From contig NC_087387.1 in assembly GCF_963675165.1 (NCBI RefSeq), forward strand, positions 999,001 to 1,063,000: DNA of 64,000 bases, written 5' to 3'. The notes beneath the pieces are model-generated. The model ran no database searches. It was not told the origin of the DNA and worked only from the letters and a program-made list of their open reading frames with translations. A program made the position numbers and the translations under genes. This document shows, piece after piece, positions 1,130-62,652 of this stretch. Each line of letters opens with the position of its first letter. Position 1 is the first letter of the stretch. Source of the DNA: Halichondria panicea (lineage: Eukaryota; Porifera; Demospongiae; Suberitida; Halichondriidae).

Positions 1130-3313
1130 CTAAAAGATAACAACAGATCCGTCACTGCACGCATATACAAAACCATCAGTGTCCACAGTTACTCCAAAAA
1201 GATTAGTGATATGACCATTACCAAATGATGTGACAAACTGACAGTCTTTAGTGAACACTGACACACAACCGTTATAATAATCAACAATATAAAACCAGTG
1301 ACAAACAAAACCAGTGACACACACACCACGAGGGGTAGACAGATCTCCTTGTCCACTTCTTTTCTTTCCAATCGAGCGAATAAACCGACCATCCATAGTG
1401 AGCACTTGAACACGATGATTATAACAGTCAGTGACATACATCATTTGTTTATTGTCCACTGCAACATCCTCTGGGCAGTTAAAATGCTCATTACCAGTTC
1501 CCTCTGAACCAATCTGCTTGACTGGCTCCAGCTCTGTAGTCAACACTTGGACTCTGTGATTATTCTGATCGCACACAAACACTTGATCACCAGCGACTGC
1601 TATCCCTCGAGGGAAGTTGAGTTCTTTTGGACCACGTCCCTTCGTCCCAAACCTCTTCAGCAGATCTCCTCTTTTGTTGAACTTGTACACACAGTGTTTG
1701 CTACTATCACAGACATAGATGTTGTCCTCCTTGTCTACTGCCACACCAGAGATACCGACAAACCCATGCTTTGACTTGCTGATGCTTCGAATTTGTTTTC
1801 CTTTCTTGTCAAACACCAAAACATCACCGCTATAGTTAGTTACAATCAGTTCATCTGATGAGTTGAATGCCATATACCGAGGTTCGTTGATTCTTCTTAT
1901 CACTCTCACTGGTTTGTCCAGCTTGGTGGGGGGTATTTTGATGAACACAGAGAAGGGGCTTCCTGGGATGGGCTGGTCGTCCACTGAGATCAGGAGGTGG
2001 TGTCGACCACGTACCCTAGGGGTGTACTCAACACTGTACACTTCACCCCTCACAGGCACTGCTTGCAGTTGTTGGGTCGATTGATCAACTAGCGATTTCA
2101 GTACTGCTTGTGGTTTGCCTTGTTTTGAACTGATATAGACATTCAGCCTTGCATATTTGTCAACTTCAGCTGTTTTGATGCCGTTTCCTTTCACAATCGG
2201 CTTTCCTTCATGTACAATAATGTTGTTCTCGCACAACTTCTTGAGATCCTCACAAACAAACACTTTGACTCCAAAATCATCTTTCTCCACTGGATCAGGA
2301 TTGGCTGCTTCCTTCCCTCGCTTCACCACCTCGGCATCGATTCGACTCACCACCTGCTCTTGCATCGTAATCAGTTCTTCATCACTTGCATTCTCCAGTG
2401 TACACTCTACAAAGTCAATCAAACTCTGAGCAGTGCCCAGGGACAGGTCCAGACCCTTCTCTTGAACCGTCAGCTTCTCCATCCTTGAATCAGCCAAAGC
2501 AGAAGATTCTCGTAAAACACAGACTTTGCATCGATCGAGAATATCGTGTAGCTCCTGGAACTTGGCATTCACTTGTCTCTCTGTCAGTTCTTTCTGGGAC
2601 TGGATATTCTGTTTAGTTCCTTTCACTTGATTCACAGCGGTGCTCAGATCAGGCAGTAGGTTCTTGAGTGGGGAGAGGTGCTCCGTCAGCTTTTTGCGAG
2701 TTGCGGGGGCGGCTTTCTTTACAAATTCGTAATTGTGTCCAGCGTGTTCAATAACGATACAGTCTCGACAGATGAGCTTGTTGCAATCAAAACAGAAAAT
2801 CTTTTTCAGTTCTTCGTGATCTTCACATTTTGGGGGTGGTGGGCTTTCGAATGTTAGTTCTTTCACTCCGCCCTGTTTGAGCTCGTCCAGAGTGGAGATG
2901 GCATGTCCGGTAAATACTCTCAATCGTTTATGAGACTTCACACAATCTTCACAGATGAAATTGACACATTGTCGGCAGAATGCAGTGGCCTTTCCCCCAG
3001 AGCACATTTCACAAGTGGCCTCCAATTTTCCGTGGGCTTTCTCCATCCTCGAGTGGAGTGCTTTCATCCGGTTGATGAAGAACGCAGTGGGCAGTCTGTC
3101 AGGGTTGTTGTCTGGCAATAGAGTGGGCTCACGACAGTCGGGGCAGGGGAACGGCTGGTTGGGTCGGTAGCGACTGGAGAGTGTGAGGATGCATTGCTTG
3201 CAGTAGTAGTGACAACAAGGGAGCAGCTTTGGCTCCTGGTAGCGGTCATGACAGATGCCACAGGTCACCTCTTGCTTGAGATCAGCAACAACTGGATCAG
3301 GTCTTTCGGCCAT
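1130..3313 (-). CDS. TRIM-NHL protein T1 (RING, B-box, filamin, NHL)
   Basis: Single-exon 727-residue protein with the TRIM2/TRIM3/TRIM71 architecture. RING is C3HC4 at about residues 18-60 (CGIC, HYYCKQC, CPDC), B-box 1 about 101-140, B-box 2 about 163-193, coiled coil about 200-335, filamin/ABP280 repeat about 350-455 (GSPFSVF) and six NHL repeats about 468-727. RING TRIMs are E3 ubiquitin ligases, and NHL propellers of this family bind RNA or protein partners. The start is the MAERPDP methionine, conserved as MAEGPDP in sister copies. A minus-strand AATAAA lies at 1089-1094, about 36 bases past the stop. The filamin domain is class alpha (ISSKQGK). Blade-loop residues: YS (blade 1), QN (blade 3), CY (blade 4), YYNG (blade 5), SDG (blade 6). 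Blade 5 carries a short insertion next to GFVC that duplicates part of the repeat. T1 looks intact. Confidence 0.9.
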   Translation of the reverse strand: MAERPDPVVADLKQEVTCGICHDRYQEPKLLPCCHYYCKQCILTLSSRYRPNQPFPCPDCREPTLLPDNNPDRLPTAFFINRMKALHSRMEKAHGKLEATCEMCSGGKATAFCRQCVNFICEDCVKSHKRLRVFTGHAISTLDELKQGGVKELTFESPPPPKCEDHEELKKIFCFDCNKLICRDCIVIEHAGHNYEFVKKAAPATRKKLTEHLSPLKNLLPDLSTAVNQVKGTKQNIQSQKELTERQVNAKFQELHDILDRCKVCVLRESSALADSRMEKLTVQEKGLDLSLGTAQSLIDFVECTLENASDEELITMQEQVVSRIDAEVVKRGKEAANPDPVEKDDFGVKVFVCEDLKKLCENNIIVHEGKPIVKGNGIKTAEVDKYARLNVYISSKQGKPQAVLKSLVDQSTQQLQAVPVRGEVYSVEYTPRVRGRHHLLISVDDQPIPGSPFSVFIKIPPTKLDKPVRVIRRINEPRYMAFNSSDELIVTNYSGDVLVFDKKGKQIRSISKSKHGFVGISGVAVDKEDNIYVCDSSKHCVYKFNKRGDLLKRFGTKGRGPKELNFPRGIAVAGDQVFVCDQNNHRVQVLTTELEPVKQIGSEGTGNEHFNCPEDVAVDNKQMMYVTDCYNHRVQVLTMDGRFIRSIGKKRSGQGDLSTPRGVCVTGFVCHWFYIVDYYNGCVSVFTKDCQFVTSFGNGHITNLFGVTVDTDGFVYACSDGSVVIF

Positions 3314-4012: not shown

Positions 4013-8365
<4,353 letters not shown>

Positions 8366-8914: not shown

Positions 8915-8919
8915 AAAGG

Positions 8920-9197: not shown

Positions 9198-9263
9198 AAA
9201 GGGAAAAATATTAATGTCTTAAATAATAAAAATTAATGATAAGGCCAGGGTAGTTTGACTGAC

Positions 9264-10239: not shown

Positions 10240-12438
10240 CTAAAAGATAACAACAGATCCGGCACTGCGCACATACACAAAACCATCACTGTCCACAGCT
10301 ACTCCATAAAGATCAGTGATATGACCATTACCAAATGATGTGACAAACTGACCGTCTTTAGTGAACACTGACACACGCTTGTTAGCATCGTCAGCAACAT
10401 AAACAAAACCAGTGACACACACACCATAAGGGCGAGACAGATCTCCTTGTCCATTTCCTTTCTTTCCAATCGAGCGAATAAACCGACCATCCATAGTGAG
10501 CACTTGAACACGATGATTATAACAGTCAATGACATACACCATTTGTTCATTGTCCACTGCAACATCCTTTGGGTAGTTAAAATGTCCATTACCAGTTCTG
10601 TATGAACCAATCTGCTTGACTGGCTCCAGCTCTGTTGTCAACACTTGGACTCTGTGATTCCTTTCATCGCACACAAACACTTGATCACCAGCGACTGCTA
10701 TCCCTCGAGGGAAGTCGAGTTCTTTTGGACCACGTCCATTCGTCCCAAACCTCTTCAGCAGATCTCCTCTTTTGTTGAACTTGTACACACAGTGTTTGCT
10801 ACTATCACAGACATAGATGTTGTCCTCCTTGTCTACTGCCACACCAGAGATACCGACAAACCCATGCTTTGATTTGCTGATGCTTCGAATTTGTTTTCCT
10901 TTCTTATCAAACACCAAAACATCACCGCTACAGTCAGTTACAATCAGTTCTTCTGATGAGTTGAATACCATATATTGAGGGTGGTTGATTCCTCTTATCA
11001 CCCTCACTGGTTTGTCTAGCTTGGTGGGGGGTATTTTGATGAACACAGAGAAGGGGCTTCCTGGAATAGGCTGTTCGTCCACTGAGATCAGGAGGTGGTG
11101 TCGACCACGTACCTTAGGGGTGTACTCAACGCTGTACACTCCACCCCTCACAGGCACTGCTTGCAATTGTTGGGATGTATCATCAACTAGCGATCTTAGA
11201 GTCAATTTAGTTTTTGAAGAAAATTGTTGTGGCTGGTGTGTATTGATTGAAAAGCAAGCAGGTTTATCGATTTCAGCATTTTTAGCTCCATCTCCTTCCA
11301 CAGTGCACTTCGTTGGATCAACTTTAGTACCATTATACACAAAAACGTTGTTCTCACACAACTTCTTGAGATCCTCACAAACAAACACTTCGACTCCAAA
11401 ATCATCTTTCTCCACTGGATCAGGATTGGCTGCTTCCTTCCCTCGCTTCACCACCTCGGCATCGATTCGACTCACCACCTGCTCTTGCATCGTAATCAGT
11501 TCTTCATCACTTGCATTCTCCAGCGTACGCTCTACAAAGTCAATCAAACTCTGAGCAGTGCCCAGGGACAGGTCCAGACCCTTCTCTTGAACCGTCAACT
11601 TCTCCATCCTTGAATCAGCCAAAGCAGAAGATTCTCGTAAAACACGGACTTTGCATCGATCGAGAATATCGTGTAGCTCCTGGAACTTGGCATTCACTTG
11701 TCTCTCTGTCAGTTCTTTCTGGGCCTGGATCTTCTGTTTAGTTCCTTTCACTTGATTCACAGCGGTGCTTAGATCAGGCAGTAGGTTCTTGAGTGGGGAG
11801 AGGTGCTCCGTCAGCTTTTTGCGAGTTGCGGGGGCGGCTTTCTTTACAAATTCGTAATTGTGTCCAGCGTGTTCAATAACGATACAGTCTCGACAGATGA
11901 GCTTGTTGCAATCGAAACAGAAAATCTTTTTTAGTTCCTCGTGATCCTCGCATTTTGGGGGTGGTGGGCTTTCGAATGTTAGTTCTTTCACTCCGCCCTG
12001 TTTGAGGTCGTCCAGAGTGGAGATGGCATGTCCGGCAAATACTCTCAATCGTTTATGACACTTCACACAATCTTCACAGATGAAATTAACACATTGTCGG
12101 CAGAATGCAGTAGCCTTTCCCCCAGAGCACATTTCACAGGTGGTCTCCAACTTGCCGTGGGCTTTCTCCATCTTCGAGTGGAGTGCTTTCATCCGGTTGA
12201 TGAAGAACGCAGTGGGCAGTCTGTCTGGGTTGTTGTCTGGCAATAGAGTCGGCTCACGACAGTCGGGGCAGGGGAACGGTTGGTTTGGTCGGTAGCGACT
12301 GGAGAGTGTGAGGATGCATTGCTTGCAGTAGTAGTGACAACAAGGGAGCAGCTTTGGCTCCTGGTAGTGGTCATGACAGATGCCACAGGTCACCTCTTGC
12401 TCGAGATCAGCAACAACTGGATCAGGTCCTTCGGCCAT
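10240..12438 (-). CDS. TRIM-NHL protein T2
   Basis: Intact intronless TRIM-NHL protein of about 732 residues from the MAEGPDP start at 12436-12438. An in-frame upstream Met at 12477 would add 13 residues not shared by sister genes, so I prefer the inner start. The RING, two B-boxes, coiled coil, filamin and six NHL repeats are complete. The filamin first half is class beta (SINTHQP, preceded by VEGDGAKNAEIDK), unlike T1, although RING and coiled coil are almost identical. Blade-loop residues: CS (blade 1), ER (blade 3), CY (blade 4), DDANK (blade 5), SAG (blade 6). The upstream flank is the plus-strand fragment region rather than MCM6, and the TATA-like leader block is missing. Confidence 0.9.
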   Translation of the reverse strand: MAEGPDPVVADLEQEVTCGICHDHYQEPKLLPCCHYYCKQCILTLSSRYRPNQPFPCPDCREPTLLPDNNPDRLPTAFFINRMKALHSKMEKAHGKLETTCEMCSGGKATAFCRQCVNFICEDCVKCHKRLRVFAGHAISTLDDLKQGGVKELTFESPPPPKCEDHEELKKIFCFDCNKLICRDCIVIEHAGHNYEFVKKAAPATRKKLTEHLSPLKNLLPDLSTAVNQVKGTKQKIQAQKELTERQVNAKFQELHDILDRCKVRVLRESSALADSRMEKLTVQEKGLDLSLGTAQSLIDFVERTLENASDEELITMQEQVVSRIDAEVVKRGKEAANPDPVEKDDFGVEVFVCEDLKKLCENNVFVYNGTKVDPTKCTVEGDGAKNAEIDKPACFSINTHQPQQFSSKTKLTLRSLVDDTSQQLQAVPVRGGVYSVEYTPKVRGRHHLLISVDEQPIPGSPFSVFIKIPPTKLDKPVRVIRGINHPQYMVFNSSEELIVTDCSGDVLVFDKKGKQIRSISKSKHGFVGISGVAVDKEDNIYVCDSSKHCVYKFNKRGDLLKRFGTNGRGPKELDFPRGIAVAGDQVFVCDERNHRVQVLTTELEPVKQIGSYRTGNGHFNYPKDVAVDNEQMVYVIDCYNHRVQVLTMDGRFIRSIGKKGNGQGDLSRPYGVCVTGFVYVADDANKRVSVFTKDGQFVTSFGNGHITDLYGVAVDSDGFVYVRSAGSVVIF

Positions 12439-12980
12439 CGTTAGTTCAGATCTGGGGATATGCATTTGTAAAATCATGAAACTATTCTGTTTAATATAAT
12501 AACAGCATAGTATGTTAAATCTGTGAATAATAGTTCATTAGGTCAATTCAAGCTAAACTAGACCTCTTGAAAAAACTTACCTTAACTGTTTATCAGAAGT
12601 TCCTTTCAGTGCAGCCTATAATATAGATATATATATATAAATTATTATATATAGCCGGCCAGAAGTAGATATTGTTTTGCATGTACCTTGTACTGGTACT
12701 TGCTACTCCCGTTACATAATGTATAAATCTGACCAGATACACCCACTTTGTTTCAACACCCACACTTTTCTTCAAGGCAGTGAAGCAGTGAAGCCAACTG
12801 ATGTGAAGTTAGTGAATAAAATACAAATGCATGACCACTGTCCTTGAAATAATGATTCTAGGATCTATGTGCATCTAGTAGATCTTTATGAATACGAAAA
12901 AAGTGTTCAAGATGCTCACAAAATAGTGAGTGCCTTTCCCTTTCCATCACAATTCCTGCCACTTGTAGCTGGTACTATTT
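12439..12980. other. T2 upstream flank
   Basis: No gene found. It has short AT-rich runs (ATATATATAT near 12625) and the shared CATGTACCTTGTACTGGTAC motif near 12679. The flank matches 33311-33800 upstream of T5, showing that T2 and T5 share their 5' flank. Confidence 0.5.
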
Positions 12981-13821: not shown

Positions 13822-13860
13822 TTGCACTAGTAATATTGCAGAGACTGTATATGGTACAGA

Positions 13861-15603: not shown

Positions 15604-18161
15604 CTAAAAGATAACAACAGATTGTTGACTGCGCACATATACAAAACCATCACTGTCCACAGCTACTCCATAAAGATTAGTGATACGACCATTACCAAAT
15701 GATGTGACAAACTGACCGTCTTTAGTGAACACTGACACACGATTGTTAGTATCCTCAACAACATAAACAAAACCAGTGACACACACACCATAAGGGTAAG
15801 ACAGATCTCCTTGTCCACTTCCTTTCTTATCAATCGAGCGAATAAACCGACCATCCATAGTGAGCACTTGAACACGATGATTATAACAGTCAGTGACATA
15901 CATCATTTGTTCATTGTCCACTGTAACATCCTCTGGTTTGTTAAAATGTCCATTACCAGTTCCGTATGAACCAATCTGCTTGACTAGCTCCAGATCTGTC
16001 GTCAACACTTGGACTCTGCTATTCTTTCGATCGCACACAAACACTTGATCACCAGCGACTGCTATCCCTCGAGGGTAGTTGAGTTCCTTTGGACCACTTC
16101 CCTTCGTCCCAAACCTCTTCAGCAGATCTCCTCTTTTGTTGAACTTGTACACACAGTGTTTGGTACTATCACAGACATAGATGTTGTCCTCCTTGTCCTC
16201 CTTGTCTACTGCCACACCACAGATAAAGCCAAACCCATGCTTTGATTTGCTGATGCTTTGAATTTGTTTTCCTTTCTTGTCAAACATCAAAACATCACCG
16301 TTCCAGTCAGTTACAATCAGTTCTTCTGATGAGTTGAATACCATATATCGAGGGTTGTTGATTCCTCTTATCACCCTCACTGGTTTGTCCAGCTTGGTGG
16401 GGGGTATTTTGACGGGCACGGCGAAGGGGCTTCCTGGAATAGGCTGGTCGTCCACTGAGATCAGGAGGTGGTGTCGACCACGTACCCTAGGGGTGTACTC
16501 AACGCTGTACACTTCACCCCTCACAGGCACTGCTTGCAATTGTTGAGATGATTCATCAACTAGCGATTTTAGAGTTACTTTAATTTTTGAAGAACATTTT
16601 CGTGGCTGGTGTGTATTGATTGAAAAGCAAGCAGGATTATCGATTTCAGCATTTTTAGCTCCATCTCCTTCCACAGTGCACTTTGTTGGATCCACTTTAC
16701 CGTCATACACAAAAACGTTCTTCACACACAACAAATTCTTGAGATCTTCACAAACAAAAATTTCAACTCCAAGATCATCTTTCTCCACTGGATCAGGATT
16801 GGCTGCTTCCTTCCCTCGCTTCACCACCTCGGCATCGATTCGACTCACCACCTGCTCTTGCATCGTAATCAGTTCTTCATCACTTGCAATCTCCAGTGTA
16901 CGCTCTACAAAGTCAATCAAACTCTGAGCAGTACCCAGGGACAGGTCCAGACCCTTCTCTTGAATCGTCAGCTTTTCCATTTTTGAATCAGCCAAAGCAG
17001 AAGATTCTCGTAAAACACGAACCTTGCATCGATCGAGAATATCGTGTAGCTCATGGAACTTGGCATTCACTTGTCTCTCTGTCAGTTCTTTCTGGGACTG
17101 GATATTCTGTTTAGTTCCTTTCACTTGATTCACAGCGGTGCTCAGATCAGGCAGTAAGTTCTTGAGTGGGGAGAGGTGCTCCGTCAGCTTTTTGCGAGTT
17201 GCGGGGGCAGCTTTCTTTACAAATTCGTAATTGTGTCCAGCATGTTCAATAACGATACAGTCTCGACAGATGAGCTTGTTGCAATCGAAACAGAAAATCT
17301 TTTTTGGCTCTTCGTGATCTTCACATTTTGGGGGTGGTGGGCTTTCGAATGTTAGTTCTTTCACTCCGCCCTGTTTGAGCTCGTCCAGAGTGGAGATAGC
17401 ATGTCCGGCAAATACTTTCATTTTATGAGACTTCACACAATCGTCACAGATAAAACTGACACACTGTCGGCAGAATGCAGTGACCTTTCCCCCAGAGCAC
17501 ATTTCGCAGGTGGTCTCTAACTTGCCGTGGGCTTTCTCCATCCTCGAGTGGAGTGCTTTCATCCGGGTGATGAAGAACGCAGTAGTCAGTCTGTCAGGGT
17601 AATTGTGTCCAGCATGTTCAATAACGATACAGTCTCGACAGATGAGCTTGTTGCAATCAAAACAGAAAATCTTTTTCAGTTCTTCGTGATCTTCACATTT
17701 TGGGGGTGGTGGGCTTTCGAATGTTAGTTCTTTCACTCCGCCCTGTTTGAGCTCGTCCAGAGTGGAGATGGCATGTCCGGTAAATACTCTCAATCGTTTA
17801 TGAGACTTCACACAATCTTCACAGATGAAATTGACACATTGTCGGCAGAGCACATTTCACAAGTGGCCTCCAATTTTCCGTGGGCTTTCTCCATCCTCGA
17901 GTGGAGTGCTTTCATCCGGTTGATGAAGAACGCAGTGGGCAGTCTGTCAGGGTTGTTGTCTGGCAATAGAGTGGGCTCACGACAGTCGGGGCAGGGGAAC
18001 GGCTGGTTGGGTCGGTAGCGACTGGAGAGTGTGAGGATGCATTGCTTGCAGTAGTAGTGACAACAAGGGAGCAGCTTTGGCTCCTGGTAGCGGTCATGAC
18101 AGATGCCACAGGTCACCTCTTGCTTGAGATCAGCAACAACTGGATCAGGTCTTTCGGCCAT
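15604..18161 (-). pseudogene. TRIM-NHL T3, chimeric and frameshifted
   Basis: Two TRIM pieces are fused. The 5' piece (about 17605-18161) is nearly identical to T1 and its upstream flank. It encodes the RING, then loses 22 bases inside B-box 1 near 17850, so the RING frame ends after 117 residues (17808-18161). The B-box 2 segment then joins, at GHNY/PDRLTT near 17600, a second linker, B-box 1, B-box 2, coiled coil, filamin and NHL series (open frame 15604-17853). The body is T4-like in B-box 1 and NHL blades 3-4 (RKNSR, FNKPED) but T8-like in the filamin domain (class beta, HQPRKCSSK). Blade 2 has an extra KED repeat (DKEDKEDN). Possible products are a RING-only peptide or a RING-less protein from an internal Met. 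A normal TRIM cannot be made. Confidence 0.8.
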
Positions 18162-18860
18162 CGTTAGTTAAGATCTGGGGAATGCATTTGTACAACATTT
18201 ATAAAAGCATGAAACTATTCTAATATAAAAATTAAATAGCAACTTCGCTAGAAATTGAGTATACAAGAATGTTGAATCTGTGAATAATAGTTTGCACTAA
18301 GTGATCAATTAGGTCAAGCTAAGCTAGACCTCTGCAGCTAGTTGAAAAAATGGGTACCTGAAAAAACTTACCTACTATTTATAAGAACTTCCTAGATCCA
18401 ATTTCAACAATTACAAGCCTTTAATTAATTAGTTTTGCATGTACCTTGTACTGGTACATGCTACGCCCATTACACAATGTTATAAATCTGACCAGATACG
18501 CCCACTTTTTTGTTTCAACACTGGCCCACACTTTCTTTCAATATGAAAGTACATGTACATGTATGTACAACAATTCTACACAACTTGGTAGCAACATTGA
18601 TATCTCCCTGAGCACTGGGCATGAGATGCCTTGATCCCAGGCCACACTGAAGATGGAGGCCTTGTAGGAGGCTAGGGATGCTTCTATTAAAAGCTGTCTT
18701 GGTATCTTTCAATTTAAAATTATAATTATCAGCGTACTAGGTACACAAATATTGAGGAATGCATAATTATAAGTATGTGTTCAATACATGTACATGTATA
18801 TAACTGGTAAAAATGTTTGCCAAGTTTATAAGTCGTTGAACAAACTAATGTTCGATGTGT
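18162..18860. other. TRIM-MCM6 spacer, unit 2
   Basis: No gene. Nearly base-for-base copy of 3314-4012, including the TATA-like leader block. It indicates that the T3 5' end and this flank came together from a T1-type unit. Confidence 0.6.
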
Positions 18861-21581
18861 TCATGTCTCAACGACGTAGTTGGGATGAACCACCAGGAAT
18901 GGATCTTCGTCTGACTCCTCCCCCATCACCAACGGCAACAGAATGTGGTCCTACACACAAAAAACGCAATTCTGATTAAGCACAAAAGTATCGTTTTAAT
19001 CAGCATGCAATACGCACATACCAATACACTACTAGTGCACAAAATCTCAAACAAACTGCGAAAAGAATCATGTACAAATGCTACGAGGACCATGCATGTA
19101 CTTTTTGTAAAACTTTCCACCTAGCTTTACATTAGAGACAAATGGGCCCATGGAGACGAGGCTAACTGCACGTGCACTCATGATTGACTCACATGTTGCA
19201 CAAGTCTCTCGATGACCTTCTCCACGAGGAGCTTCTTCTCCGTCAGCTCCTCCACATTCTCTATATCATCAGCCACCTCCTTCAGGTACCAGTTCACTAG
19301 GTCACCTTCACGAACTCCGCTAGAATCTGGAGGGGGGAGGAGTGTACTTGATGTAGCATTAATACCCCTATCACACCAAAGCATGTATTTCAAACTGTCA
19401 CAATCAGTGGGTATAAATCAAAGCCAAGTCGTAGTGTATATAGTTACAAACAAACATAATGTAGCTGAAGTGATCAGTGTACATACAGCAATCAACACTA
19501 CAGCCTTTTAATGGCCACTCATGAAGAAAGGCTAACCCAGATATAAAGGCCACGCCAAATAAACAGCTTGTGTACTAAACAAACCCTCAGTCAATAAGGG
19601 CCAACATTTAATTGTTCCCCAAAGGTGTTCGCTATAGAGGGGTTTACTACTGACAGCTGCACCTTTGTCTGCCTCCTCGCTCTGACGCATGTGCAGGATG
19701 AGCAGGTTGGAGATGATACGATATTCTTCATATGTAACTCGTATCTTCTTGGTCTTCACTGGCGGTTGGGTGGATGGATCTGATTGGTCTATTGGAGTGT
19801 GGCCGTTCACTCCATTCTCGGCATTGACACCATTCTCGCCATTGGTCATGCAGTCCTCATCATTGCCTACAGTAATGCACATGTGTGTAAAGTTATGAAA
19901 ATGCTAGAAATTGAGAAAAGTTATGCATGGACACTCAAGTAAGTTTGTTAGCGAAACACACCATTTATTACTAGCCTTTGGTCTAAAAGCAATTGTTAAG
20001 CACGTTTAATATCAGCCAGAATTTATTTTCTCAAGGGAATAATTATTACTTGATGTTAAGAGCCACAGTATAATGACACCACCCACCATTGATGATCTGT
20101 TTATCCTCGTCAAAGTTGATGTCAGGAGTCTCCACACGAATAATAGACTTATTGAGCAAACGAAAGCCTTCCTTCACATGCTTGGGTTGTACCTGAGGCA
20201 TGTATAGTCATGTAATGAACCTGATGACCATCATAATATAATATCCAACAAATCATAAGTTGTATTCTGTACACACACCTACAAAATCACCCACACAGGC
20301 CACTCTACACCCACACACACCCCTCACTCTTCACACTCCACACACCTCATCAGAGCAGTGAATCCTGGCCATGGCCTCCGCGAGTCGTATCAAACTCTCC
20401 AGCTGTCTCACGATGATTCTCCATGACGACCGAGCCACGCCCGAGCAGTCTCTCTGCCGTAACTTCTTGTACTGCTCCACCATGTACTCACCAGAGGTGG
20501 GGCTGATACGAGGCTTGAACTGCCGAGCAAACAATACGTAGCGTTGGATCTCCTCCTGAAGGGGGCGGGGTCACAGTGGTACAATGACGTATTGATTTGC
20601 AACTGATTAATTACCTATACTAGCTAATATAGTACACCATCTAAAAACCATGTATCTCCGCGGTTTTTTACGATAATTGTAACGAAGAACTTTAAATTTA
20701 CCATAACTTATTCAAGCAAAAAGGCTGGTATATTATTCATGCCATAACTACAACCCTCCCCCCGTCTGCACCACTCACGAGGGAATAGACACGCTCCACT
20801 GCCTCTGTCTTGTGACTGTGGAGGTCCACAATACGCCTAGCGATGGCATAGTCAGTCACCTGTGGAGGAGGGGGAGCATCAATCAACACACTAGGTCAAG
20901 GTGTCACACTCAAAAATACAAATGCAGCTATTGCTACACTATAATAATAATCATGGGCAGTGGAATGGCAGAAAAGGGACAGTAGAGTGGAACAGAAAAA
21001 CTGCACATGCTCAGTATTGAACCCCAAATAGCTAAAAAATGGAAAAAGACAGCAGCGCTTAATTTACATTTAAAGCGTGTCTTCATGCAGATATTAGAGC
21101 ACTCACCCACTAAACCACCACTAACAGTGCACCTGTCATACACATTGACATACCAGTGTAGACAACAAAACCATAATTCAATTAGATAGCCAGAAAAAAG
21201 TTTTAGTTCATACTTGGGTTAATTATGATTTTGCTTTTCATTGCACAGTTGCAGCTAGGGTACATAAACCATGCATCGTATCAATTCAAATCTGCTGAGG
21301 AAGTAGATTATAAGAATAGTGCCTGGGGGAAGTAATTATATAATATAATTACTGGACATCACCTAGGATACGGACTGAATCAGTAAATAAATTAATGATG
21401 TGAAGCACTCACTGTTGGTTGTGTAAACTTGAACTGCTGCTCAACATCAGAGATGACCGTCTGACACTCGAGACAGAGGAACGTCCCATTGGTCAGCTCG
21501 GGATGGACAGGGTGCGTCCGTACCACTTGCCCACTGATGCGTAGCAGAGTACCCACCTTGGACATTGAGAGTTCACGAACC
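18861..21581 (-). pseudogene. MCM6: MCM6 copy 2, AAA+ core deleted
   Basis: Exons, last to first: 18861-18950, 19193-19326, 19663-19866, 20087-20192, 20346-20555, 20779-20859, then directly 21413-21581. The last of these encodes the zinc-finger exon (CLEC; segment [16 protein letters not shown]). The six exons that should lie between them are absent. They carry the second zinc pair, the N-terminal hairpin region, Walker A, Walker B and the arginine finger. The sequence departs from sister copies after GCTAGGGTACAT near 21262, which places the deletion joint in intron sequence. The remaining exons could still splice but would give a protein without ATPase activity. It is also cut 5' of 21581, where Tudor sequence begins near 21612. 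Confidence 0.85.
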
Positions 21582-21611
21582 CTGTGGGTGAATAAGTTGA
21601 CTCAAAAAATA

Positions 21612-22092: not shown

Positions 22093-22267
22093 TTTCACTT
22101 GTAATAAGATGGTAAAGATCCTCATAACACAATCACAAACTATCTTTCCCAATATAGGCAGCAGGCAGGTAAAGATCGTCAGTAGAACTAACTGCTTCTC
22201 AATCAAAAGTAAATTATTACATACACATAAAACACAGATTGCTACTGCCCACACACACAAATAATAA

Positions 22268-25095: not shown

Positions 25096-29353
<4,258 letters not shown>

Positions 29354-30962: not shown

Positions 30963-31129
30963 TTTCACTTGTGTAGTTAAATGAGACGGTAAAGATCGTC
31001 GTAACACAATCACAAACGATCTTTCCCAAAATTGGCAGTGTAGGCAAGTAAAGATCATCAGTAGAGGTAACTGTTTTTCAAATTAAAAGACACATTTGCT
31101 TCTGCCCACACACACAAAATAATAATACA

Positions 31130-44626: not shown

Positions 44627-44737
44627 AATTGGCAGTGTAGGCCAGTAAAGATCGTCAGTAGAGCTAACTGTTTTTCAAGTCAATAATCACACAAAATACA
44701 GATTTGCTACTGCCCACACACACAAAATAATAATACA

Positions 44738-46945
44738 CTAAAAGATAACAACAGAGTCTACACTGCGCACATACACAAAACCATCACTGTCCACAGCTAC
44801 TCCACAAGGATAAGTGATATGATCATTACCAAATGATGTGACAAACTGACCGTTTTTAGTGAACACTGACACACGCTTGTTAGTATACTCAGCAACATAA
44901 ACAAAACCAGTGACACACACACCATAAGGGCCAAGCAGATCTCCTTGTCCACTTCCTTTCTTTCCAATCGAGCGAATAAACCGACCATCCATAGTGAGCA
45001 CTTGAACACGATGATTACTACAGTCAGTGACATACATCATTTGTTCATTGTCCACTGCAACATCCTCTGGTTGGTTAAAATGTCCATTACCAGTTCCCTT
45101 TGAACCAATCTGCTTGACTGGCTCCAGCTCTGTTGTCAACACTTGGACTCTGTGATTTTGATCGTCGCACACAAACACTTGATCACCAGCGACTGCTATC
45201 CCTCGAGGACAGTTGAGTTCCTTTGGACCACTTCCAATCGTCCCAAACCTCTTCAGCAGATCTCCTCTTTTGTTGAACTTGTACACACAGTTTTTGCTGC
45301 TATCACAGACATAGATGTTGTCCTCCTTGTCTACTGCCACACCACAGATACTGCCAAACCCATGCTTTGATTTGCTGATGCTTTGAATTTGTTTTGCTTT
45401 CTTGTCAAACACCAAAACATCACCGCTACCGTCAATTACAATCAGTTCTTCTGATGAGTTGAATACCATATATCGAGGGTTTTTGATTCCTCTTATCACC
45501 CTCACTGGTTTGTCTAGCTTGGTGGGGGGGGGTATTTTGATGAACACAGAGAAGGGGCTTCCTGGAATAGGCTGATCGTCCACTGAGATCAGGAGGTGGT
45601 ATCGACCACGTACCCTTGGGGTGTACTCAACACTGTACACTCCATCCCTCACAGGCACTGCTTGCAATTGTTGAGATGATTCATCAACTAGCGATTTTAG
45701 AGTCACTTTAGTTTTTGAAGAACATTTTCGTGGCTGGTGTGTATTGATTGAAAAGCAAGCAGGATTATCGATTTCAGCATTTTTAGCTCCATCTCCTTCC
45801 ACAGTGCACTTTGTTGGATCCACTTTAGTACCGTCATACACAAAAACGTTCTTCACGCACAACAAATTCTTGAGATCTTCACAAACAAAAATTTCAACTC
45901 CAAAATCATCTTTCTCCACTGGATCAGGATTGGCTGCTTCCTTCTCTCGCTTCACCACCTCGGCATCGATTCGACTCACCACCTGCTCTTGCATCGTAAT
46001 CAGTTCTTCATCACTTGCATTCTTCAGTGTACGCTCTACAGAGTCAATCAAACTCTGAGCAGTGCCCAGGGACAGGCCCAGACCCTTCTCTTGAATCGTC
46101 AGCTTCTCCATTTTTGAATCAGCCAAAGCAGAAGATTCTAGTAAAACACGGACCTTGCATTGATTGAGAATATTGTGTAGCTCCTGGAACTTGGCATTCA
46201 CTTGTCTCTCTGTCAGTTCTTTCTGGACCTGGATCTTCTGTTTAGTTCCTTTCACTTGATTCACAGCTGTGCTCAGATCAGGCAGTAGGTTCTTGAGTGG
46301 GAAGAGGTGCTCAGTCAGCTTTTTGCGAGTTGCGGGGGCGGCTTTCTTTACAAATTCGTAATTGTGTCCAGCGTGTTCAATAACGATACAGTCTCGACAG
46401 ATGAGCTTGTTGCAATCGAAACAGAAAATCTTTTTCGGCTCTTTGTGATCTTCACATTTTGGGGGTGGTGGGCTTTCGAATGTTAGTTCTTTGACTCTGC
46501 CCTGTTTGAGCTCGTCCAGAGTGGAGACGATATGTGTAGCAAACAGGGATTTCATACGCTGATGAGATCTTACACAATTCTCACAGATGAACTGGACACA
46601 CTGTCGGCAGAATGCAGTGGCCTTTCCCCCAGAGCACACTTCACAGGTGGTCTCCAACTTGCCATGGGCTTTCTCCATCCTCGAGTGGAGTGCTTTCATC
46701 CGGTTGATGAAGAACGCAGTGGGCAGTCTGTCTGGGTTGTTGTCTGGCAATAGAGTGGGCTCACGACAGTCGGGGCAGGGGAACGGCTGGTTGGGTCGGT
46801 AGCGACTGGAGAGTGTGAGGATGCATTGCTTGCAGTAGTAGTGACAACAAGGGAGCAGCTTTGGCTCCTGGTAGTGGTCATGACAGATGCCACAGGTCAC
46901 TTCTTGCTCGAGATCAGCAACAACTGGATCAGGTCCTTCGGCCAT
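44738..46945 (-). CDS. TRIM-NHL protein T8
   Basis: Intact 735-residue intronless TRIM-NHL protein starting MAEGPDP. The B-box 1 tail is CVRSHQRMKSLFATH. The filamin domain is class beta with VKNVFVYDGTKVDP, almost the same as in T3. A G-run expansion at about 45526-45533 adds one proline (IPPPTKL). Blade-loop residues: GS with IVIDGS (1), SSKN (2), DQ (3), CS (4), EYTNK (5), SVD (6), with entry loops NC (3), Q (4), LGPY (5) and YPC (6). Tudor copy 4 is downstream and MCM6 copy 4 upstream. Confidence 0.9.
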   Translation of the reverse strand: MAEGPDPVVADLEQEVTCGICHDHYQEPKLLPCCHYYCKQCILTLSSRYRPNQPFPCPDCREPTLLPDNNPDRLPTAFFINRMKALHSRMEKAHGKLETTCEVCSGGKATAFCRQCVQFICENCVRSHQRMKSLFATHIVSTLDELKQGRVKELTFESPPPPKCEDHKEPKKIFCFDCNKLICRDCIVIEHAGHNYEFVKKAAPATRKKLTEHLFPLKNLLPDLSTAVNQVKGTKQKIQVQKELTERQVNAKFQELHNILNQCKVRVLLESSALADSKMEKLTIQEKGLGLSLGTAQSLIDSVERTLKNASDEELITMQEQVVSRIDAEVVKREKEAANPDPVEKDDFGVEIFVCEDLKNLLCVKNVFVYDGTKVDPTKCTVEGDGAKNAEIDNPACFSINTHQPRKCSSKTKVTLKSLVDESSQQLQAVPVRDGVYSVEYTPRVRGRYHLLISVDDQPIPGSPFSVFIKIPPPTKLDKPVRVIRGIKNPRYMVFNSSEELIVIDGSGDVLVFDKKAKQIQSISKSKHGFGSICGVAVDKEDNIYVCDSSKNCVYKFNKRGDLLKRFGTIGSGPKELNCPRGIAVAGDQVFVCDDQNHRVQVLTTELEPVKQIGSKGTGNGHFNQPEDVAVDNEQMMYVTDCSNHRVQVLTMDGRFIRSIGKKGSGQGDLLGPYGVCVTGFVYVAEYTNKRVSVFTKNGQFVTSFGNDHITYPCGVAVDSDGFVYVRSVDSVVIF

Positions 46946-47638: not shown

Positions 47639-51058
<3,420 letters not shown>

Positions 51059-51509
51059 TGTCTTGCATTGCTATGACTTCATCGCTTTGCTGCCATGTGG
51101 TGTTTTGTGATACAACGGTTTCTATCGTAATATTTTCTGGGATGTCTTGCACTTCTCTGGTTTCATCCTCTGGGGGGAGGGGCTGCTCTTGTACCTCAAA
51201 TGTAGCTTGCTGTGTAATGAACGTGGCTTCTGCTGCTAATGCTTGAGACATCATCACCTGGTTTTTGAGCTCACAAACTAGGGACTGGGCCGTGTAGGGG
51301 TCAAATTGTCCATCTTCAGAGCTTGGTTGGTCATCAGTGGGTACTGGTACTTCATCTTGTTCATTGAGATTGTCACTTTTAGTGAGGTTATTGAGATCTG
51401 ATTGATAGTGGAGTCTCACAAGCAGTGGCTCTGCTCTCTCTGTAGTTGTGTAATGGGTCCATGCAACTGATGCAGCTTCAGATACAGAGTGTGCTAGGTA
51501 CTTGTCCAT
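51059..51509 (-). pseudogene. Tudor-like gene copy 5 (5' exon only)
   Basis: ATG at 51507-51509 (MDKYLAHS). The frame is open through the acidic region to EVIAMQDN near 51060, where it runs into the inverted MCM6 fragment. The Tudor exon and everything 3' of it are absent. Confidence 0.5.
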
Positions 51510-51684
51510 TTTCACTTGTAATAAGATGGTAAAGATCCTCATAACACAATCACAAACAATCTTTCCCAAAATAGGCAGCAGGCAGGTAAAGATCGTCAGT
51601 AGAAATAACTGCTTCTCAATCAAAAGTAAATTATTACATACACATAAAACACAGATTGCTACTGCCCACACACACAAATAATAA

Positions 51685-53835
51685 CTAAAATATAACAACA
51701 GATCTGCCACTGCACACATAAACAAAACCATCACTGTCCACAGCTACTCCATAAAGATCAGTGATATGACCATTACCAAATGATGTGACAAACTGACCGT
51801 CTTTAGTGAACACTGACACACACTTGTTATCACGATCAGCAACATAAACAAAACCAGTGACACACACACCACAAGGGTCAGACAGATTTCCTTGACCATT
51901 TCCTTTCTTTCCAATCGAGCGAATAAACCGACCATCCATAGTGAGCACTTGAACACGATGATTATAATAGTCAGTGACATACACCATTTGTTCATTGTCC
52001 ACTGTGACATCCTCTGGTCCGTTAAAATGTCCATTACCAGTTCCGAATGAACCAATCTGCTTGACTGGCTCCAGCTCTGTCGTCAACACTTGGACTCTGT
52101 GATTATTCTGATCGCACACAAACACTTGATCACCAGCGACTGCTATCCCTCGAGGGAAGTTGAGTTCCTTTGGACCACTTCCCTTCGTCCCAAACCTCTT
52201 TAGCAGATCTCCTCTTTTGTTGAACTTGTACACACAGTGTTTTCTGCTATCACAGGCATAGATGTTGTCTTCCTTGTCTACTGCCACACCAGAGATACCG
52301 CCAAACCCATGCTTTGATTTGCTGATACTTTGAATTTGTTCTCCTTTTTTGTCAAACACCAAAACATCACCTCTAAAGTCAGTTACAATCAGTTCTTCTG
52401 ATGAGTTGAATACCATATACCGAGGGTTGTTGATTCCTCTTATCACCCTCACTGGTTTGTCCAGGGGTATTTTGACGAACACAGAGAAGGGGCTTCCTGG
52501 GATAGGCTGATCGTCCACTGAGATCAAGAGGTGGTGTCGACCACGTACCCTAGGGGTGTACTCAACGCTGTACACTCCACCCCTCACAGGCACTGCTTGC
52601 AATTGTTGGGTCGATTGATCAACTAGCGATTTCAGTACTGCTTGTGGTTTGCCTTGTTTTGAACTGATATAGACATTCAGATTTGCACATTTGTCAACTT
52701 CAGCCATCTTCACACCATCACCCCTCACAGAAGGATAAACTACAACATTGTTCTCACACAACTTCTTGAGATCCTCACAAACAAACACTTCAACTCCAAA
52801 ATCATCTTTCTCCACTGGATCAGGATTGGCTGCTTCCTTCCCTCGCTTCACCACCTCGGCATCGATTCGACTCACCACCTGCTCTTGCATCGTAATCAGT
52901 TCTTCATCACTTGCATTCTCCAGTGTACGCTCTACAAAGTCAATCAAACTCTGAGCAGTGCCCAGGTACAGGTCCAGACCCTTCTCTTGAATCGTCAGCT
53001 TCTCCATTTTTGAATCAGCCAAAGCAGAAGATTCTCGTAAAACACGAACCTTGCATCGATCGAGAATATCGTGTAGCTCCTGGAACTTGGCATTCACTTG
53101 TCTCTCTGTCAGTTCTTTCTGGGCCTGGATCTTTTGTTTAGTTCCTTTCACTTGATTCACAGCGGTGCTCAGATCAGGCAGTAGGTTCTTGAGTGGGGAG
53201 AGGTGCTCTGTCAGCATTTTGTGAATTGCGGGGGCGGCTTTTTTTACAAACTCTGACTTGTGGTCACGGTGATCGAACACAGCACAGTCTCGACAGATGA
53301 GCTTGTCACAATCAAAACAGAAAATCTTTTTTAGCTCCTCGTGATCTTCGCATTTTGGGGGTGGTGGGCTTTCGAATGTTAGTTCTTTCACTCCGCCCTG
53401 TTTGAGCTCGTCCAGAGTGGAGATAGTATGTCCGGCAAATACTTTCATTTTATGAGACTTCACACAATCGTCACAGATAAAACTGACACACTGTCGGCAG
53501 AATGCAGTGGCCTTTCCCCCAGAGCACATTTCGCAGGTGGTCTCTAACTTGCCGTGGGCTTTCTCCATCCTCGAGTGGAGTGCTTTCATCCGGTTGATGA
53601 AGAACGCAGTAGTCAGTCTGTCAGGGTTGTTGTCTGGCAATAGAGTGGGCTCACGACAGTCGGGGCAGGGGAACGGCTGGTTGGGTCGGTAGCGACTGGA
53701 GAGTGTGAGGATGCATTGCTTGCAGTAGTAGTGACAACAAGGGAGCAGCTTTGGCTCCTGGTAGCGGTCATGACAGATGCCACAGGTCACTTCTTGCTCG
53801 AGATCAGCAACAACTGGATCAGGTCCTTCGGCCAT
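51685..53835 (-). CDS. TRIM-NHL protein T9
   Basis: Intact 716-residue intronless TRIM-NHL protein. B-box 1 is the T4 type (CVKSHKMKVF). B-box 2 is the rare DKLICRDCAVFDHRDHKS variant otherwise found only in T7. The filamin domain is class alpha with VYPSVRGDG. The linker before NHL is short by three residues (KIPLDKP for KIPPTKLDKP). Blade-loop residues: FR (1), SRKH with ACDS (2), QN (3), YY (4), DRDNK (5), SGR (6), with entry loops GG (2), NF (3), G (4), DPC (5) and DLY (6). Confidence 0.9.
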   Translation of the reverse strand: MAEGPDPVVADLEQEVTCGICHDRYQEPKLLPCCHYYCKQCILTLSSRYRPNQPFPCPDCREPTLLPDNNPDRLTTAFFINRMKALHSRMEKAHGKLETTCEMCSGGKATAFCRQCVSFICDDCVKSHKMKVFAGHTISTLDELKQGGVKELTFESPPPPKCEDHEELKKIFCFDCDKLICRDCAVFDHRDHKSEFVKKAAPAIHKMLTEHLSPLKNLLPDLSTAVNQVKGTKQKIQAQKELTERQVNAKFQELHDILDRCKVRVLRESSALADSKMEKLTIQEKGLDLYLGTAQSLIDFVERTLENASDEELITMQEQVVSRIDAEVVKRGKEAANPDPVEKDDFGVEVFVCEDLKKLCENNVVVYPSVRGDGVKMAEVDKCANLNVYISSKQGKPQAVLKSLVDQSTQQLQAVPVRGGVYSVEYTPRVRGRHHLLISVDDQPIPGSPFSVFVKIPLDKPVRVIRGINNPRYMVFNSSEELIVTDFRGDVLVFDKKGEQIQSISKSKHGFGGISGVAVDKEDNIYACDSRKHCVYKFNKRGDLLKRFGTKGSGPKELNFPRGIAVAGDQVFVCDQNNHRVQVLTTELEPVKQIGSFGTGNGHFNGPEDVTVDNEQMVYVTDYYNHRVQVLTMDGRFIRSIGKKGNGQGNLSDPCGVCVTGFVYVADRDNKCVSVFTKDGQFVTSFGNGHITDLYGVAVDSDGFVYVCSGRSVVIF

Positions 53836-54537: not shown

Positions 54538-59784
<5,247 letters not shown>

Positions 59785-59825
59785 CTGTGGGTGAATAAGT
59801 TGACACATTATCACTCAAAAAATAC

Positions 59826-60305
59826 TTCGGCCAAATACTGCAGAGAGTTGTCTTGCGTTGCTATGACTTCATCACTTTGCTGCCATGTGGTGTCTTGTGA
59901 TACAACGGTTTCTATCGTAATATTTTCAGGGATGTCTTGCATTTCTCTGGCTTCATCATCTGGGGGGCCGGGGAGGGGCTGCTCTTGTACCTCAAATGTA
60001 GCTTGCTGTGTAATGAACGTGGCTTCTGCTGCTAATGCTTGAAACATCATCACCTGTTTGTTGAGCTCACAAACTAGGGACTGGGCCGTGTAGAGGTCAA
60101 ATTGTACATCTTCAGAGCTTGGTTGGTCATCAGTGGGTACTGGTACTTCATCTTGTTCATTGAGATTGTCACTTTTAGTGATGTTATCCAGATCTGATTG
60201 ATAGTGGAGTCTCGCAAGCAGTGGCTCTGCTCTCTCTGTAGTTGTATAATGGGTCCATGCAACTGATGCAGCTTCAGATACAGAGTGTGCTAGGTACTTG
60301 TCCAT
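59826..60305 (-). pseudogene. Tudor-like gene copy 6 (5' exon only)
   Basis: ATG at 60303-60305 (MDKYLAHS). The frame is open through the acidic region to YLAE and fuses to MCM6 intron as VFFE near 59826, the same breakpoint as at 21612. It carries the PGPPDDE insertion also seen in copy 2. Confidence 0.5.
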
Positions 60306-60480
60306 TTTCACTTGTAATAAGATGGTAAAGATCATCATAACACAATCACAAACGATCTTTCCCAAAATAGGCAGCAGGCAGGTAAAGATCATCAGTAGAA
60401 CTAACTGCTTCTCAATCAAAAGTAAATTATTACATACACATAAAACACAGATTGCTACTGCCCACACACACAAATAATAA

Positions 60481-62652
60481 CTAAAATATAACAACAGATC
60501 CGTGACTGCGCACATAAACAAAACCATCACTGTCCACAGCTACTCCATAAAGATCAGTGATATGACCATTACCAAATGATGTGACAAACTGACCGTCTTT
60601 AGTGAACACTGACACACGCTTGTTACCATCGTCAATAACATAAACAAAACCAGTGACACACACACCATAAGGGCGAGACAGATCTCCTTGTCCATTTCCT
60701 TTCTTTCCAATCGAGCGAATAAACCGACCATCCATAGTGAGCACTTGAACACGATGATTATAACAGTCAGTGACATACATCATTTGTTCATTGTCCACTG
60801 CAACATCCTGTGGGAGGTTAAAATGCTCATTACCAGTTCCCTCTGAACCAATCTGCTTGACTGGCTCCAGCTCTGTCGTCAACACTTGGACTCTGTGATT
60901 ATTATGATCGCACACAAACACTTGATCACCAGCGACTGCTATCCCTCGAGGGTAGTTGAGTTCCTTTGGACCACTTCCAATCGTCCCAAACCTCTTTAGC
61001 AGATCTCCTCTTTTGTTGAACTTGTACACACAGCGTTTTATGCTATCACAGACATAGATGTTGTCCTCCTTGTCTACTGCCACACCAGAGATACCGACAA
61101 ACCCATGCTTTGATTTGCTGATGCTTCGAATTTGTTTTCCTTTCTTGTCAAACACCAAAATATCACCGCTATGGTCAGTTACAATCAGTTCTTCTGATGA
61201 GTTGAATGCCATATACACAGGGATGTTGATTCCTTTTATCTCCTTCACTGGTTTGTCCAGCTTGGTGGGGGGTATTTTTACGAACACAGAGAAGGGGCTT
61301 CCTGGTATGGGCTGGTCGTCCACTGAGATCAGGAGGTGGTGTCGACCACGTACCCTAGGGGTGTACTCAACGCTGTACACTCCACCCATCAAAGGCACTG
61401 CTTGCAATTGTTGGGTCGATTGATCAACTAGCGATTTCAGTACTGCTTGTGGTTTGCCTTGTTTTGAACTGATATAGACATTCAGCCTTGCACATTTGTC
61501 AACTTCAGCTGTTTTAATGCCGTCTCCTTTCACAATCGGCTTTCCTTCATGTACAATAACGTTGTTCTCACACAACTTCTTGAGATCCTCACAAACAAAC
61601 ACTTCGACTCCAAAATCATCTTTCTCCACTGGATCAGGATTGGCTGCTTCCTTCCCTCGCTTCACCACCTCGGCATCGATTCGACTCACCACCTGCTCTT
61701 GCATCGTAATCAGTTCTTCATCACTTGCATTCTCCAGTGTACGCTCTACAAAGTCAATCAAACTCTGAGCAGTGCCCAGGGACAGGTCCAGACCCTTCTC
61801 TTGAACTGTCAGCTTCTCCATCTTTGAATCAGCCAAAGCAGAAGATTCTCGTAAAACACGGATCTTGCATTGATCGAGAATATCGTGTAGCTCCTGAAAC
61901 TTGGTATTGACTTGTCTCTCTGTCAGTTCTTTCTGGGCCTGGATATTCTGTTTGGTTCCTTTCACTTGATTCACAGCGGTGCTCAGATCAGGCAGTAGGT
62001 TCTTGAGTGGGGAGAGGTGCTCCGTCAGCTTTTTGCGAGTTGTGGGGGCGGCTTTCTTTACAAATTCGTAATTGTGTCCAGCGTGTTCAATAACGATACA
62101 GTCTCGACAGATGAGCTTGTTGCAATCAAAACAGAAAATCTTTTTTGGCTCCTCATGATCCTCGCATTTTGGGGGTGGTGGGTTTTCGAATGTTAGTTCT
62201 TTCACTCCGCCCTGTTTGAGCTCTTCCAGAGTGGAGACGATATGTGTAGCAAACATTTTCATACGTTGATGAGATTCTACACATTTTTCACACATAAACT
62301 GGACACACTGTCGGCAGAATGCAGTGGCCTTTCCCCCAGGGCACATTTCACAGGTTGTCTCCAACTTGCCGTGGGCTTTCTCCATCCTCGAGTGGAGTGC
62401 TTTCATCCGGTTGATGAAGAACGCAGTGGTCAGTCTGTCTGGGTTGTTGTCTGGCAATAGAGTGGGCTCACGACAGTCGGGGCAGGGGAACGGCTGGTTG
62501 GGTGGGTAGCGACTGGAGAGTGTGAGGATGCATTGCTTGCAGTAGTAGTGACAACAAGGGAGCAGCTTTGGCTCCTGGTAGCGGTCATGACAGATGCCAC
62601 AGGTCACTTCTTGCTCGAGATCAGCAACAACTGGATCAGGTCCTTCGGCCAT
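60481..62652 (-). CDS. TRIM-NHL protein T10
   Basis: Intact 723-residue intronless TRIM-NHL protein. The B-box 1 tail is CVESHQRMKMFATH with FMCEKC. The filamin domain is class alpha with VHEGKPIVKGDG, closest to T1. VPLMGGVY replaces VPVRGGVY, and the NHL entry reads EIKGINIPVY. Blade-loop residues: HS (1), SIKR (2), HN (3), CY (4), DDGNK (5), SHG (6), with entry loops NY (3), L with PQD (4), RPY (5) and DLY (6). Downstream Tudor copy 6; upstream MCM6 copy 6. Confidence 0.9.
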   Translation of the reverse strand: MAEGPDPVVADLEQEVTCGICHDRYQEPKLLPCCHYYCKQCILTLSSRYPPNQPFPCPDCREPTLLPDNNPDRLTTAFFINRMKALHSRMEKAHGKLETTCEMCPGGKATAFCRQCVQFMCEKCVESHQRMKMFATHIVSTLEELKQGGVKELTFENPPPPKCEDHEEPKKIFCFDCNKLICRDCIVIEHAGHNYEFVKKAAPTTRKKLTEHLSPLKNLLPDLSTAVNQVKGTKQNIQAQKELTERQVNTKFQELHDILDQCKIRVLRESSALADSKMEKLTVQEKGLDLSLGTAQSLIDFVERTLENASDEELITMQEQVVSRIDAEVVKRGKEAANPDPVEKDDFGVEVFVCEDLKKLCENNVIVHEGKPIVKGDGIKTAEVDKCARLNVYISSKQGKPQAVLKSLVDQSTQQLQAVPLMGGVYSVEYTPRVRGRHHLLISVDDQPIPGSPFSVFVKIPPTKLDKPVKEIKGINIPVYMAFNSSEELIVTDHSGDILVFDKKGKQIRSISKSKHGFVGISGVAVDKEDNIYVCDSIKRCVYKFNKRGDLLKRFGTIGSGPKELNYPRGIAVAGDQVFVCDHNNHRVQVLTTELEPVKQIGSEGTGNEHFNLPQDVAVDNEQMMYVTDCYNHRVQVLTMDGRFIRSIGKKGNGQGDLSRPYGVCVTGFVYVIDDGNKRVSVFTKDGQFVTSFGNGHITDLYGVAVDSDGFVYVRSHGSVVIF

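Follow-up and report, generated by a model that had tools for sequence, protein, structure and literature searches.

To our knowledge, diversified TRIM repertoires are known only on vertebrate B30.2 domains, and some of the fish finTRIMs have been reported to be induced by virus or interferon. Among proteins with an NHL propeller, Brat and Mei-P26 act singly as developmental regulators and do not belong to a multigene family whose faces are under selection, and Drosophila Thin/Abba is not known to us as an amplified or diversified family. By the account given in passages of PMC3137616, the finTRIM, btr and trim35 proteins of fish (RBCC–B30.2) form large families with selected, hypervariable loops on the ligand surface, the btr copies recombine, and the variable ligand loops of TRIM5α have diversified in the course of primate evolution, with an effect on the set of retroviruses that it restricts. 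Passages of PMC5908797 name the RNA-contacting residues of zebrafish LIN41, which line a basic pocket and are mostly identical across species, and an excerpt of PMC9070667 assigns recognition by the NHL domains of Brat and Mei-P26 to the top face. For sponges, one figure legend of PMC8242945 includes NHL among the domains of receptor proteins. No published description of a diversified NHL face was recognised by title in a library that takes in a minority of subscription papers and no bioRxiv preprints.

The window analysed here is a stretch of 64,000 nucleotides of Halichondria panicea DNA, positions 999001–1063000 of contig NC_087387.1 (C11), in a genome of 131 Mb in 39 contigs. All ten TRIM-NHL genes of the window were confirmed, each on the minus strand. 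T1 (1130–3313, NHL part 1133–1939) encodes 727 residues with a RING, two B-boxes, a filamin domain and an NHL propeller; T2 (10240–12477, NHL part 10243–11037) is listed at 745 residues; and T4 (22268–24427, NHL part 22271–23065), at 719 residues, is the numbering reference and the copy of the structure model. T5 (31130–33310, NHL part 31133–31927) differs in its recognition face from its counterparts in duplicated blocks, and T6 (35589–37790, NHL part 35592–36386) has four sister copies with 0–1 nonsynonymous face changes. Together with T8 (44738–46945, NHL part 44741–45538), T9 (51685–53835, NHL part 51688–52473) and T10 (60481–62652, NHL part 60484–61278), these make up the eight intact-looking genes. 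The exceptions are T3 (15604–17853, NHL part 15607–16410), a rearranged open reading frame (ORF) with a late start and the RING not in frame, and T7 (39718–41823), a decayed copy without its C terminus in which RING Cys33 is replaced by Arg. A separate RING-bearing ORF (17811–18167, minus strand) adjoins T3 and continues into other sequence, MCM-like by eye. T7 and its three relatives on C11 (at 949296, 1106359 and 1197289) hold one TAG each, and T7 therefore looks like a decayed lineage.

In a Pfam scan of three of the ten genes (T1, T3 and T4), the B-box (PF00643), filamin (PF00630) and NHL (PF01436) domains were over cut-off in all three, and the RING (PF00097) scored 25.1 bits against a cut-off of 21 in T1 and T4 and was absent from the T3 ORF; no SPRY (B30.2/PRY-SPRY) match was found in these three, which have NHL instead. 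A C3HC4 RING, B-boxes and filamin followed by an NHL propeller, found by Pfam in T1 and T4 (and, apart from the RING, in T3), with the propeller borne out by the structure model described below, are features of TRIM-NHL (class VII TRIM) proteins. The residue strings that an earlier note had quoted for T1–T10 (the blade 1 and blade 3 pairs, the blade 5 loop, the blade 6 triplet, and the variable residue of the N-x-P motif for blades 3 and 5) match the translations, and its blade 1 motif IVTD is borne out except in T1 (IVTN) and T8 (IVID). Its description of the copies as near-identical has to be softened, amino-acid identity between window copies being 79–91%; the family of ten is real, but the window has only part of a larger one.

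That larger group, family A, comprises at least 47 full-length, stop-free, single-exon RING/B-box/filamin/NHL genes on C11 (a manual count among the matches listed), at least 39 of them within 0.94–1.30 Mb of the contig. A search with T4, in which 62 of 322 candidates were scored, gave at least 67 matches; those listed all lie on C11. The RING Cys/His columns are kept in 49–50 of 50 family A copies, the exceptions being T3 and T7; the decayed copies of the family include T7, T3 and one labelled L040. An NHL-model search returned many matches on other contigs (150 of 830 candidates scored), and searches with three of these yielded families B (at least 28 near-full-length, stop-free genes, mostly in C3 at 5.9–6.3 Mb, one on C9), C (at least 23 intact genes, in C3 at 0.07–1.9 Mb, one on C8) and D (at least 11 intact genes, in C5 at 5.6–5.8 Mb). 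The total of 109 intact genes in the four families was counted by eye and is a lower bound. In a tree of 100 sequences the families form separate clades with support of 1.0, and identity in this set is 77–100% within and 24–40% between families. The family A alignment consists of the ten window copies and 40 fetched copies, and those of B, C and D of 21, 21 and 12 sequences. Every row was used for entropies; T3, T7 and L040 were left out of the family A dN/dS estimates, face counts and PHI tests (47 remain), and L033–L036 also out of its site-wise test (43 remain), whereas in family D L098 was left out of the PHI and site-wise tests and one identical row also out of the latter (10 remain).

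An AlphaFold2 model of the T4 NHL part, made from the ten window copies, has six blades (pLDDT 92.6, pTM 0.91). Its nearest solved fold is that of Thin (Z 42.3, r.m.s.d. 1.3 Å over 265 residues); RNA-bound LIN41 (6fq3) aligns with Z 39.0 and an r.m.s.d. of 1.5 Å over 262 residues (model 1–265 to 539–824), TRIM2, TRIM71 and TRIM3 score Z 37.7–38.3, and RNA-bound Brat 31.7. With strand limits taken from this one predicted model of one copy, the 28 family A NHL sites with an entropy (H) above 1.5 bits divide into 14 in the BC loops, 11 in the DA loops and 3 at the first two positions of strand a, and none lies in loops AB or CD. As the earlier note had claimed, the variable sites fall on the same loops of each blade; they are not scattered. 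By convention the DA and BC loops form the top face of the propeller, a placement with which the LIN41 RNA contacts agree. General loop flexibility is rejected as the explanation by the mean H of 0.24 in loops AB and CD and 0.19–0.38 in the strands, against 1.02 in BC and DA (p = 1.6e-7).

Four positions per blade, namely the x and the P+1 of N-x-P and the pair that follows the Asp/Glu of strand b, define a set of 24 positions termed face24. In T4 its codons span 22286–23011 (minus strand) and encode residues 473, 475, 490, 491, 516, 518, 533, 534, 563, 565, 579, 580, 609, 611, 626, 627, 656, 658, 671, 672, 696, 698, 713 and 714. On the same four register positions lie 13 of the 14 RNA-contact residues of zebrafish LIN41 named in the passages of PMC5908797, 12 of the contact letters having been checked on the human sequence and two taken from that source. 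Mean column entropy in family A is 2.22 bits at face24 and 0.34 in the rest of the NHL (AUC 0.980, p = 2e-15, n = 50). The register was fixed after the family A entropies had been inspected, so an independent test comes from families B, C and D, whose registers were hand-placed on motifs. The corresponding entropies are 1.74 and 0.34 in B (AUC 0.922), 2.09 and 0.29 in C (0.978) and 1.24 and 0.29 in D (0.852). In each of the four families the entropy profile peaks at zero register shift, and face24 supplies 20 (A), 17 (B), 16 (C) and 13 (D) of the 24 most variable NHL sites, the others lying mostly within two residues of a face24 site or nine before one.

Estimates of dN/dS at face24 by the NG86 method are 2.55 (95% interval 1.72–4.18) in A and 4.47 (2.57–9.05) in C, intervals that exclude 1, and 1.63 (0.96–3.13) in B and 1.86 (0.92–4.86) in D, intervals that include 1. 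The earlier note had named dN/dS above 1 at the variable sites as support: A and C show it, and B and D do so in their point values. At residues within two positions of a face24 site the ratios are 0.81 (A), 0.51 (B), 0.97 (C) and 0.78 (D), in the NHL farther away 0.52, 0.38, 0.71 and 0.31, and over residues 1–100 0.13, 0.11, 0.33 and 0.29. Among pairs with pS of at most 0.10 the face ratio is 3.23 in A (172 pairs), 1.59 in B (17 pairs, 0.80–4.45) and 5.19 in C (53 pairs). Taken together, these sequence comparisons indicate an excess of nonsynonymous over synonymous change at face24, clear in two families and a point estimate in two, with constraint on the bottom loops and on the greater part of the framework. 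The filamin region of family A is also variable (dN 0.13). Synonymous divergence does not account for the pattern: family A has a dS of 0.27 at the face and of about 0.15 gene-wide, and its face dN divided by gene-wide dS is 4.6. A mutational hotspot was rejected on similar figures, face dS being raised (0.27 versus about 0.15 in A, 0.16 versus 0.13 in C) far less than dN.

Site by site, our own Bayesian grid implementation (fixed kappa, six arbitrary partition trees) called as positive 20 of 24 face24 sites in A, 6 in B, 17 in C and 5 in D, compared with 7 of 231, 3 of 238, 10 of 245 and 3 of 232 sites in the rest of the NHL and 3 of 464, 1 of 479, 6 of 465 and 1 of 473 upstream of it. On a single tree the calls were 17, 10, 16 and 10 of 24 at face24, 11, 7, 12 and 13 (in D, 13 of 232) in the rest of the NHL and 8, 8, 17 and 5 upstream. 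Most face24 sites of B and D are individually non-significant. In simulations on the A and C trees, the test picked out 138 of 144 selected sites and 2 of 144 that were fast-neutral, and with dN/dS of 1 everywhere 0 of 719 sites were called in each of six runs; these calibrations were simulated without recombination, which is strong in these genes and can inflate site-wise tests.

Such data bear on whether the face could have lost its ancestral ligand and drifted neutrally after amplification. Relaxed constraint of this kind would suit the existence of the decayed copies and the B and D intervals that include 1, and for B and D alone it is compatible with the estimates. Drift, however, predicts dN/dS near 1, not 2.6 in A or 4.5 in C; few fast-neutral sites were called in the recombination-free simulation; one register is common to all four families; and the residues of family A are biased in composition. 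We regard drift as scarcely credible for the system as a whole. Since the variable sites are not scattered, their dN/dS is raised and synonymous divergence does not match it along the gene, the earlier proposal, in which a constant scaffold of E3 type carries a diversified surface for recognition, is well supported, with the amendment that the filamin part varies too. As judged from the alignments, the RING–B-box part is largely constant and the filamin–NHL half bears one hypervariable propeller face.

Which ligand such a face might hold is suggested by its composition. At the variable face sites of family A the commonest residues are Tyr, Ser, Asn and Gly, followed by Arg, Cys and Asp, with few aliphatics, and a make-up rich in Tyr, Ser, Asn and Gly is paratope-like. 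An A or G stands at the second base in 83% of the codons at variable face sites in A (57% in D). The mean net charge of face24 is −0.19 in A, 0.95 in B, 0.86 in C and 0.73 in D (range −4 to +5), and that of the equivalent 24 positions of TRIM71 about +8 (hand count). The proteins resemble TRIM71/LIN-41 in having a RING, B-boxes, filamin and NHL and in using the register of its RNA contacts, but differ in that positions which form a conserved basic pocket there, by the portions of PMC5908797 cited above, are here hypervariable and near neutral. The conserved basic RNA-contact residues of that subfamily are not found, and a conserved LIN41-like RNA pocket was rejected on account of the near-neutral charge and the hypervariability. 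The faces may instead form an RNA-recognition repertoire, in which each would read a different viral, transposon or cellular RNA and repress or mark it. This reading draws on the 13 of 14 LIN41 contacts in the diversified register, on close folds that include RNA-bound LIN41, Trim71 and Brat, and on a proposal in part of PMC5908797 that RNA recognition in the NHL domain evolves rapidly; it is nevertheless unlikely, given a face24 charge of −0.19 to 0.95 against about +8 in TRIM71, a family A face rich in Tyr, Ser, Asn and Gly and not in Arg and Lys, the position of Thin as the closest fold, and TRIM2/3 scores as high as that of TRIM71. The near-neutral face compared with TRIM71 favours varied ligands, perhaps protein, over a shared RNA pocket, and judging by these residues the ligands are probably varied and proteinaceous.

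The number of distinct faces is 41 among the 47 copies of A, 21 among 21 for both B and C, and 10 among the 12 of D. By PHI tests, families A, B and C have recombined, in the whole gene as in the NHL (0 of 200 permutations); for D the whole gene shows recombination but its NHL part does not (p = 0.34). A pair of T5-like and T6-like genes was found in five places; the intergenic DNA of four of these blocks is 98.1–99.4% identical, and that of the fifth about 90%. Among the four blocks, T6-like genes differ by 0–1 nonsynonymous face change, and T5-like genes by 19–28 nonsynonymous and 0–3.5 synonymous face changes. Elsewhere in the NHL the T5-like genes differ by 21–29 nonsynonymous and 8–14 synonymous changes, and upstream by 5–56 and 10–32, the non-face differences lying mainly in filamin. 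Because the T5-like genes differ outside the face too, the blocks cannot serve as a clock of face change in place, and whole-cassette replacement is indicated rather than single-site change since duplication. Between the window and the block at 1097k, identity is 99.1% in the 5′ flank and 96–100% from the gene start to the coiled-coil region, about 79% in the filamin region, 92.5% in the NHL, 84–92% in the first 600 columns of the 3′ flank and 92–99% further out, a profile that fits replacement of the filamin–NHL half. Filamin–NHL halves appear to be swapped between copies. Twelve of the 14 closest family A pairs have 0–1 face changes, and the pair of T1 and L013 has none, with six nonsynonymous changes upstream; face change is therefore not instantaneous.

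The sequence that neighbours the genes in the repeat units provides context and an internal control. An MCM6-like P-loop exon lies at 27371–27730 (minus strand), with further window copies at 6388–6669, 50033–50311 and 56950–57231. In the TRIM-NHL units the MCM6-like exons have dN/dS of 0.03 (four copies) and 0.04 (five copies) at pS of 0.07–0.08, and the units are thus not simply decaying; a third MCM piece has a ratio of 0.67 with few changes. An ORF in the 3′ flank beside many copies was considered as a partner gene and rejected, since stops interrupt many of its matches and the two window copies open to comparison have a dN/dS of 1.23; it is probably untranslated. Three cathepsin/silicatein-type loci of the genome carry Cys in their catalytic motif.

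We consider it likely that these genes constitute a germline-encoded recognition repertoire of intracellular, predicted TRIM-type E3 ubiquitin ligases whose propeller is hypervariable on one face. Copies arise by tandem and block duplication with strong recombination among them; each face may bind a different ligand, a protein or ribonucleoprotein surface being likelier than one shared RNA motif; the RING would ubiquitinate, or signal on, the bound target; and conflict with fast-changing ligands such as viruses, bacteria or mobile elements may have driven the diversification. The repertoire may serve as an innate sensor, as the earlier note had suggested. The driver could also be self or mate recognition, allorecognition or intragenomic conflict in place of infection, and large, recombining arrays that encode many different faces would suit individuality markers as well. 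The RING stands at the protein start, however, and Pfam finds no secretion or membrane domain in T1, T3 and T4, which makes direct cell-surface recognition unlikely and this group of drivers improbable. A bolder form of the repertoire reading is put forward tentatively, as somewhat short of an even chance: more than 100 intact genes in four amplified families, a sixfold contact ring, selection with cassette swaps and a near-fixed RING half would amount to an antibody-like intracellular germline repertoire.

The repertoire is like that of fish finTRIM, btr and trim35, as far as passages of PMC3137616 describe them, in comprising large TRIM families within one genome with positively selected loops on the ligand surface, a feature clear in A and C and with intervals including 1 in B and D; it is unlike them in that their ligand domain is B30.2, a β-sandwich, whereas here it is filamin–NHL, with variable sites in all six blades. 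The resemblance is one of mode, not membership. TRIM5α is likewise a TRIM with diversified ligand-binding loops, but its loops vary between species and on B30.2, whereas the variation here is within one genome and on NHL. Brat and Mei-P26 offer, by the excerpt of PMC9070667, a parallel for predicted recognition by the top face, and Thin/Abba the closest solved fold. What would be new is a diversified TRIM repertoire on another ligand domain, NHL, the known precedent being B30.2.

With more than 100 naturally occurring versions of a single propeller face, all on a near-fixed scaffold, the families may be of use for ligand finding and for engineering binders or ligases for targeted degradation. 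If the antibody-like form is true, recognition by these families would be modular and evolvable, and repertoires should differ from one individual to the next. An NHL repertoire, if true, would mean that recognition libraries have been built from the TRIM architecture with more than one kind of ligand domain, and would indicate extensive intracellular recognition in a genome that was not expected to have it.

The filamin domain that precedes the NHL propeller also varies. In family A, the amplified TRIM-NHL family to which the genes of the window belong, the filamin region (residues 331–464, T4 numbering) differs strongly between some copies, with a dN of 0.13, and that of T5 has approximately 79% DNA identity to its T5-like counterpart in the duplicated block near 1,097 kb. 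The filamin region seems to travel together with the NHL part. Further long TRIM-NHL-like ORFs, not belonging to the four amplified families (A–D), lie on contigs C17, C15, C6, C14, C13 and C8; they are 41–57% identical to members of those families.

Directly downstream of several TRIM genes is an open frame of 221–277 residues (21496–22326, 30420–31082, 43910–44674, 50982–51743 and 59814–60539, minus strand), which is probably an untranslated portion of the repeat unit. It gave no Pfam match in the three copies scanned, and its 86 genome matches, many containing stops, lie on contig C11 in all but one case. At T3, the RING (17811–18167, minus strand), identical to that of T1 over 300 nt, is split from the remainder of the gene (15604–17853, minus strand) by a local rearrangement; by eye, the RING ORF continues into MCM-like sequence.

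Exons resembling MCM6 are found repeatedly across the repeat units (4755–4934, 6388–7116, 19604–19783, 25840–28095, 48384–48563, 50033–50736 and 55282–57678, minus strand). The P-loop exon, whose top PDB match is MCM6, gave 37 matches in the genome. Among these are 26 copies (one split) at 90–100% identity within 0.96–1.30 Mb of C11, 5 of which carry a stop inside the region of the match; outside this interval, none of the 37 exceeds 61% identity. Two of the MCM6-like exons have dN/dS values of 0.03–0.04. On this evidence, a replication helicase subunit appears to have been co-amplified with the TRIM-NHL genes.
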